A stretch of DNA of 51,374 bases, taken from Candidatus Parcubacteria bacterium. Its GTDB lineage: Bacteria > Patescibacteriota > Minisyncoccia > Phycocordibacterales > Zambryskibacteraceae. Made by a program: the position numbers and the translations under genes. The notes under the pieces were generated by a model. That model did not search any database and was not told the DNA's origin. It saw nothing but the letters and a program-made list of their open reading frames with translations. Below are positions 51,071-51,374 of the stretch, piece by piece (the stretch's first letter is position 1; each line of letters begins with the position of its first letter). Where the stretch lies: NCBI GenBank assembly GCA_019661785.1, contig JAIFWP010000004.1, forward strand, positions 1 to 51,374, read 5' to 3'.

Positions 51071-51094
51071 CAAAAGCCCCTTGCGGGGCTTTTG
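51071..51094 (-). terminator. Intrinsic terminator downstream of 16S rRNA
   Basis: CAAAAGCCCC-GCAA-GGGGCTTTTG. Confidence 0.8.
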
Positions 51095-51249
51095 CTATCG
51101 TACTCTATTTTGTTCCGTTCACTCAGTGCTTTCCTGAGAGTCATATGCATTTTAGGACTTTGTCATAATTGTCCATCATCCCTCCAGCTTGCGCTGGTCG
51201 GGACGATATCGACTCTGTAACCTTCGCATTAGCGAAAGATTTTCTAATT

Positions 51250-51374
51250 GAATTACTCCACGAGCAGCTTCCGCTACCCGTGCCTTGTTACGACTTACTC
51301 CCTGTCGATGAGCTTACCGTGGGCCCGCTTGCGCGAGACTTCGGGTACTCCCATCTCCCTTGAGTTGACGGGCG
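51250..51374 (-). rRNA. 16S rRNA, 3' end (partial; runs off right edge; exact 3' end uncertain)
   Basis: Minus strand: CGCCCGTCAACTCAAGGGAGATGGGAGTACCCGAAGTC...AGTAAGTCGTAACAAGGCACGGGTAGCGGAAGCTGC (helix 44 strand, 1492-region motif, helix 45). Confidence 0.93.

Follow-up and report, generated by a model that had tools for sequence, protein, structure and literature searches.

An order of Paceibacteria without the anti-Shine-Dalgarno sequence in its 16S rRNA, and a covarying hairpin in the remaining tail

The anti-Shine-Dalgarno (anti-SD) sequence has been lost for good from the 16S rRNA of a lineage of Paceibacteria, and every relative checked, from about 80 families of its order, shares this fixed loss. 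Few bacterial sequences are as conserved as the anti-SD, which most Bacteria use to find the starts of their genes. The window analysed here, a stretch of 51,374 nucleotides, is contig C3 of a 545-kb genome (six contigs, 95% complete) which, judging from kinship within the genome collection, belongs to the Nomura-/Zambryskibacteria order of Paceibacteria.

The explanation which we hold with high confidence as a whole combines anti-SD loss, initiation free of pairing, partly leaderless starts and a hairpin in the tail. SD use would have faded first and the anti-SD would then have been lost, with the absence of Era freeing GAUCACCUCC from a second constraint. Between one fifth and one quarter of the genes would be transcribed from a -10 box placed at -12 into leaderless mRNAs, with direct reading of their AUG, and the remaining ones would probably rely on coupling inside tight operons and on unstructured, A/U-rich starts. 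The constraint left on the tail would be that of a small hairpin in which tail positions 6-9 pair with the beginning of the trailer. An order devoid of the anti-SD, next to relatives that have it intact, half eroded or no longer at all, represents a natural series for the study of what maintains this element, and it bears on the order in which SD use, Era and the anti-SD vanish and on the later choice of start sites. In practice, rRNA annotation, SD-based gene-start callers and 16S 3' ends defined by CCUCC can err in genomes of this order.

The 3' end of the 16S rRNA gene in the window

The 16S fragment at the contig end (Table 1) matches the Rfam model from position 1391 to 1533 with 83.4 bits, and shares 95% identity across 129 nt with the complete gene of a same-genus genome, G003. 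Helix 45, for which the initial annotation had proposed a valid structure with a GGAA loop, is confirmed as complete (CACGGGTAGC-GGAA-GCTGCTCGTG; 10 bp, two of which are G-U). Beyond this intact helix, the tail begins at 51258 and reads GAGTAATTCAATTAG (GAGTAATTCAATTAGAAAATC) against the usual bacterial GATCACCTCCTTT; as a 13-nt readout, it is GAGUAAUUCAAUU in place of GAUCACCUCCUUU. It contains no CCTCC, in agreement with the earlier claim of a tail lacking a recognisable anti-SD. The same annotation described a retained GGA followed by a replacement with GTAATTC; the replacement holds and its register needs correction, as it is the first seven bases after GA (UCACCUC) that read GUAAUUC.

Table 1. 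Features at the 3' end of the 16S rRNA gene, in window coordinates
Feature	Position	Strand	Basis
16S rRNA gene, 3' part; 5' side ends at contig end	51246..51374	-	Rfam RF00177
Helix 45, GGAA tetraloop, KsgA/RsmA substrate	51259..51282	-	sequence and fold
13-nt tail, GAGTAATTCAATT where GATCACCTCCTTT is expected; anti-SD lost	51246..51258	-	sequence, Rfam match, relatives' tails
Hairpin 5' arm (UUC), tail index 6-8	51250..51252	-	covariation, 127 families, register-specific
Hairpin 3' arm (GAA), tail index 14-16, probably precursor trailer	51242..51244	-	sequence and covariation
AAAAGCCCC-GCAA-GGGGCTTTT hairpin, probable intrinsic terminator	51072..51093	-	read directly from sequence; absent from pattern-scan list

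The mature rRNA might carry an anti-SD after all, if the tail harboured an intron or if a second intact 16S gene had been left unassembled or unbinned. Matches to 16S are indeed frequently split in this lineage, as introns would split them, and the single 16S detected here is itself broken by contig ends, with its 3' end on C3 and its 5' 395 nt on C5:1-395, in a genome which is 95% complete. We nevertheless consider such a hidden anti-SD extremely improbable. Conservation of the tail spans 80 families and gives way to divergence beyond it, and an intron restoring CACCTCC was sought downstream with none found within 3 kb, the nearest downstream CCTCC being 996 nt off. No second 16S copy was found in this genome, and near-complete relatives (the single-contig G032 and the three-contig G003) have one 16S with a like tail. 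Moreover, the complete 16S genes of two independent same-genus genomes, G002 and G003, end in GGAGTAATTCAATTTGAA, the same kind of tail, which argues against an assembly error. Seemingly intact CCTCC copies in four other genomes of the order (G245, G740, G792, G753) were rejected as contaminants, residing on foreign contigs: three carry an archaeal SSU and one an unrelated bacterial rrn operon (16S-tRNA-tRNA-23S-5S), about 90% identical to a 16S in an Acinetobacter phage record.

The rRNA operon of this genome is split, and in the region that follows the 16S (51093-51015, minus strand) come the probable terminator and an unrelated gene whose promoter is a perfect TTGACA-16-TATAAT. The AAAAGCCCC-GCAA-GGGGCTTTT hairpin probably closes the 16S transcript as an intrinsic terminator, with no 23S after the 16S. 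The 23S and 5S are located on contig C5 (L171 8457-9269), with some 8 kb between them and the downstream 5' end of the 16S (1-395). In the 16S leader (L171 ~396-460), about 33 bp, TTTTCTCTTTTGTTCCGTTCATTTCAATTAG, are duplicated in tandem immediately before that end. For many 16S genes of the order (e.g. L020-L025), the Rfam match is split or overlong, as would be expected with large introns or insertions.

Loss across the order and erosion across the class

The order was sampled through relatives of Nomura-, Zambryski-, Taylor-, Adler- and Campbellbacteria, in the class Paceibacteria. None of its 119 tails, from 80 families, contains CCTCC or CTCC, and the columns which characterise the altered tail are strongly conserved, with GA at 97-100% and UUC at 87-97%. 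At least 120 contigs among GTDB representatives match the tail pattern, and the lineage-naming titles among the matches listed refer to Nomura-, Zambryski-, Taylor-, Adler-, Campbell- and Yonathbacteria and their relatives. The loss had initially been regarded as a lone case; the loss itself stands, but it is fixed order-wide and represents the far end of an erosion extending over the class.

In the wider class, several families retain the canonical tail (f40, f195, f198, f48, f216), others have partly eroded ones (GATCATCTCC, GATCACTTCT, GATTATCTCT), and in further families the tail is lost (GATCATTTATTT, GATCACTACATT). Intact and damaged tails also occur side by side within families f189, f205 and f209, and because each of the three mixes both states, the anti-SD was lost more than once in the class, as gauged from these within-family mixtures.

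Loss of the anti-SD in single genomes is already known. Organisms scarce in SD motifs and without CCUCC form category iv of a previous survey (PMC10783764, PLoS One 2024), in which one Candidatus Campbellbacteria and one Wolfebacteria genome are among those lacking CCUCC. The present order resembles that category, being without CCUCC and with few or no SD motifs, and the matches listed for its tail pattern include a Campbellbacteria genome; unlike in those isolated genomes, the loss is here fixed in about 80 families and accompanied by an intermediate series and a covarying hairpin. The order-wide scope, the erosion series and the covarying hairpin are absent from the papers found and look new, a provisional assessment given that most subscription journals and preprints were outside the literature search. 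According to the available part of another source (PMC6107228), the anti-SD is also missing from Flavobacteriia (Chryseobacterium, Riemerella), Carsonella, Hodgkinia and Mycoplasma, where, as here, both anti-SD and SD motifs are lost and no replacement anti-SD was found; these are, however, unrelated lineages, for which that part of the source reports neither a leaderless -12 box nor a tail hairpin. In SD-scarce Bacteroidota with CCUCC, the anti-SD is intact yet unused, a state proposed as a transition towards loss (PMC10783764), and the tested anti-SD-bearing Paceibacteria similarly keep CCUCC with SD motifs near background.

Start signals of the genes

Start signals were assessed on long ORFs with an unambiguous ATG, by comparing SD cores at -19 to -4 with flanking windows. 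SD cores precede 15.2% of the genes of this genome against a background of 14.2% (0.152/0.142, a ratio of 1.08), and the identical script applied to E. coli as a positive control returned 0.522 vs 0.054, a 9.6-fold enrichment. The ratio in genomes of the class which retain the anti-SD was 0.62, 1.33 and 1.45 (n=3), and because these sampled relatives have little or no SD enrichment, SD disuse probably preceded the loss of the anti-SD.

The strong conservation of the tail throughout the order is what a pairing site would display, and it might be taken to indicate that the tail was rewritten as a new anti-SD with a partner motif (TTGAAT- or AATTACT-like) upstream of genes. This is very improbable in our estimation, as hybridisation of the native tail to upstream regions was no better than shuffled (z = -1.1 for this genome, -1.1 for the genus and +1.9 for the order), unbiased k-mers turned out to be -10-like motifs at a fixed position and not the complement of the tail, and the conservation of the tail is accounted for by the hairpin covariation described below. 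Since the native tail lacks upstream pairing, no replacement anti-SD appears to have evolved. Initiation without 16S-mRNA pairing is thus supported by both the absence of SD motifs and the absence of native-tail pairing. Complementarity between the tail and the 16S 5' end amounted to six bases at most, with no consistent site.

In 64 of 302 genes (~21%), a TAnnnT motif has its first base exactly at -12, compared with 7.3 in shuffled sequences (max 14), and the same placement is found in 27% of the genes in G003, 23% in G032 and 2% in E. coli. In this genome, TG is enriched at -15/-14 alongside the boxes, as in extended -10 promoters, with no enrichment of a -35 element. With the usual spacing of a -10 box, a box at -12 puts the transcription start at the AUG. 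The leaderless architecture which the initial annotation ascribed to the whole window is therefore supported, but only for ~21-27% of genes, and about one fifth of the 40 genes listed in the window fit the box. Leaderless starts would consequently concern a substantial minority of genes, the box being observed and the transcripts deduced from it; 18 of the 64 boxes fall inside operons, a less expected place for a promoter. Deinococcus and Mycobacterium, both rich in leaderless genes, also have a -10 box that sets the transcription start at the start codon, and they keep a functional anti-SD; the order described here is like them in the placement of the box and unlike both in having lost the anti-SD.

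TAnnnT at -12 was also observed in 27% of the genes of G168, from another CPR class with an intact anti-SD, so leaderless starts and anti-SD loss do not correspond one-to-one. Furthermore, a T at -1 of the ATG occurs in 77-79% of the genes of two class relatives of family f195 (G590, G574), in 60% in G082, 50% in G439 and 33% in the present genome, possibly a start-codon context signal in anti-SD-bearing relatives that make no use of SD.

The tail hairpin and ribosome factors

The hairpin joins tail positions 6-9 to a downstream arm, as CUCC/GGAG in relatives bearing the anti-SD and elsewhere as CUCU/AGAG, UUCU/AGAA, UUCC/GGAA, UUCA/UGAA, GUCA/UGAC or AACU/AGUU; of these forms, UUCA/UGAA, UUCC/GGAA and GUCA/UGAC are those of the present lineage. 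When one tail per family was taken, four Watson-Crick pairs at register 6 were present in a mean of 67.6 of 127 families, against 21.0 after permutation of the arms (max 31), and no other register displayed comparable covariation in this set. The complementary arms stay paired through compensatory change, and the hairpin outlives the anti-SD. Because the 3' arm lies beyond the expected 13-nt tail, the hairpin is probably present in the precursor, where it likely serves 16S 3'-end maturation or the masking of the tail.

Decay of the tail free of any constraint after SD disuse, with the hairpin as an incidental feature, would fit the class-wide mosaic of partly eroded tails, the lack of a clear stem in about one third of the order tails and the weak stem of this genome, which has only 3 bp, with 4 bp in the same-genus G003. 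It is unlikely, however, given that the covariation, computed with one tail per family, is specific to the register and far exceeds permutation, and that the GA and UUC columns are 87-100% conserved in the order. A proposal to which we assign even chances goes further: the tail of Paceibacteria would be selected for its part in a processing hairpin, of which it forms the 5' arm, and not for mRNA pairing, the hairpin would be older than the loss of the anti-SD, and it would have undergone many compensatory rewrites as that loss recurred. If true, a near-universal ribosomal element would have been replaced by a maturation element throughout a whole order. Duplex folding of a leader-trailer helix gave z values of 0.2 and -0.2.

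Era binds GAUCACCUCC (PMC10582724). It exceeded the cut-off in one of 60 genomes, the lone positive falling outside the class, and its class-wide absence agrees with a previous report (PMC12641178). A second constraint on GAUCACCUCC would thereby be removed, which may have contributed to the loss of the anti-SD. As the sole cause of the order-level loss, the absence of Era was rejected, since Era is missing from anti-SD-bearing and anti-SD-lacking groups alike. The protein bS21, reported to sequester the anti-SD in Bacteroidota (PMC10783764), is divergent here, with weak matches in about half of both the anti-SD-bearing and the anti-SD-lacking genomes. KsgA is kept in nearly all genomes tested, including the present one (G000:C6:85255-86043).
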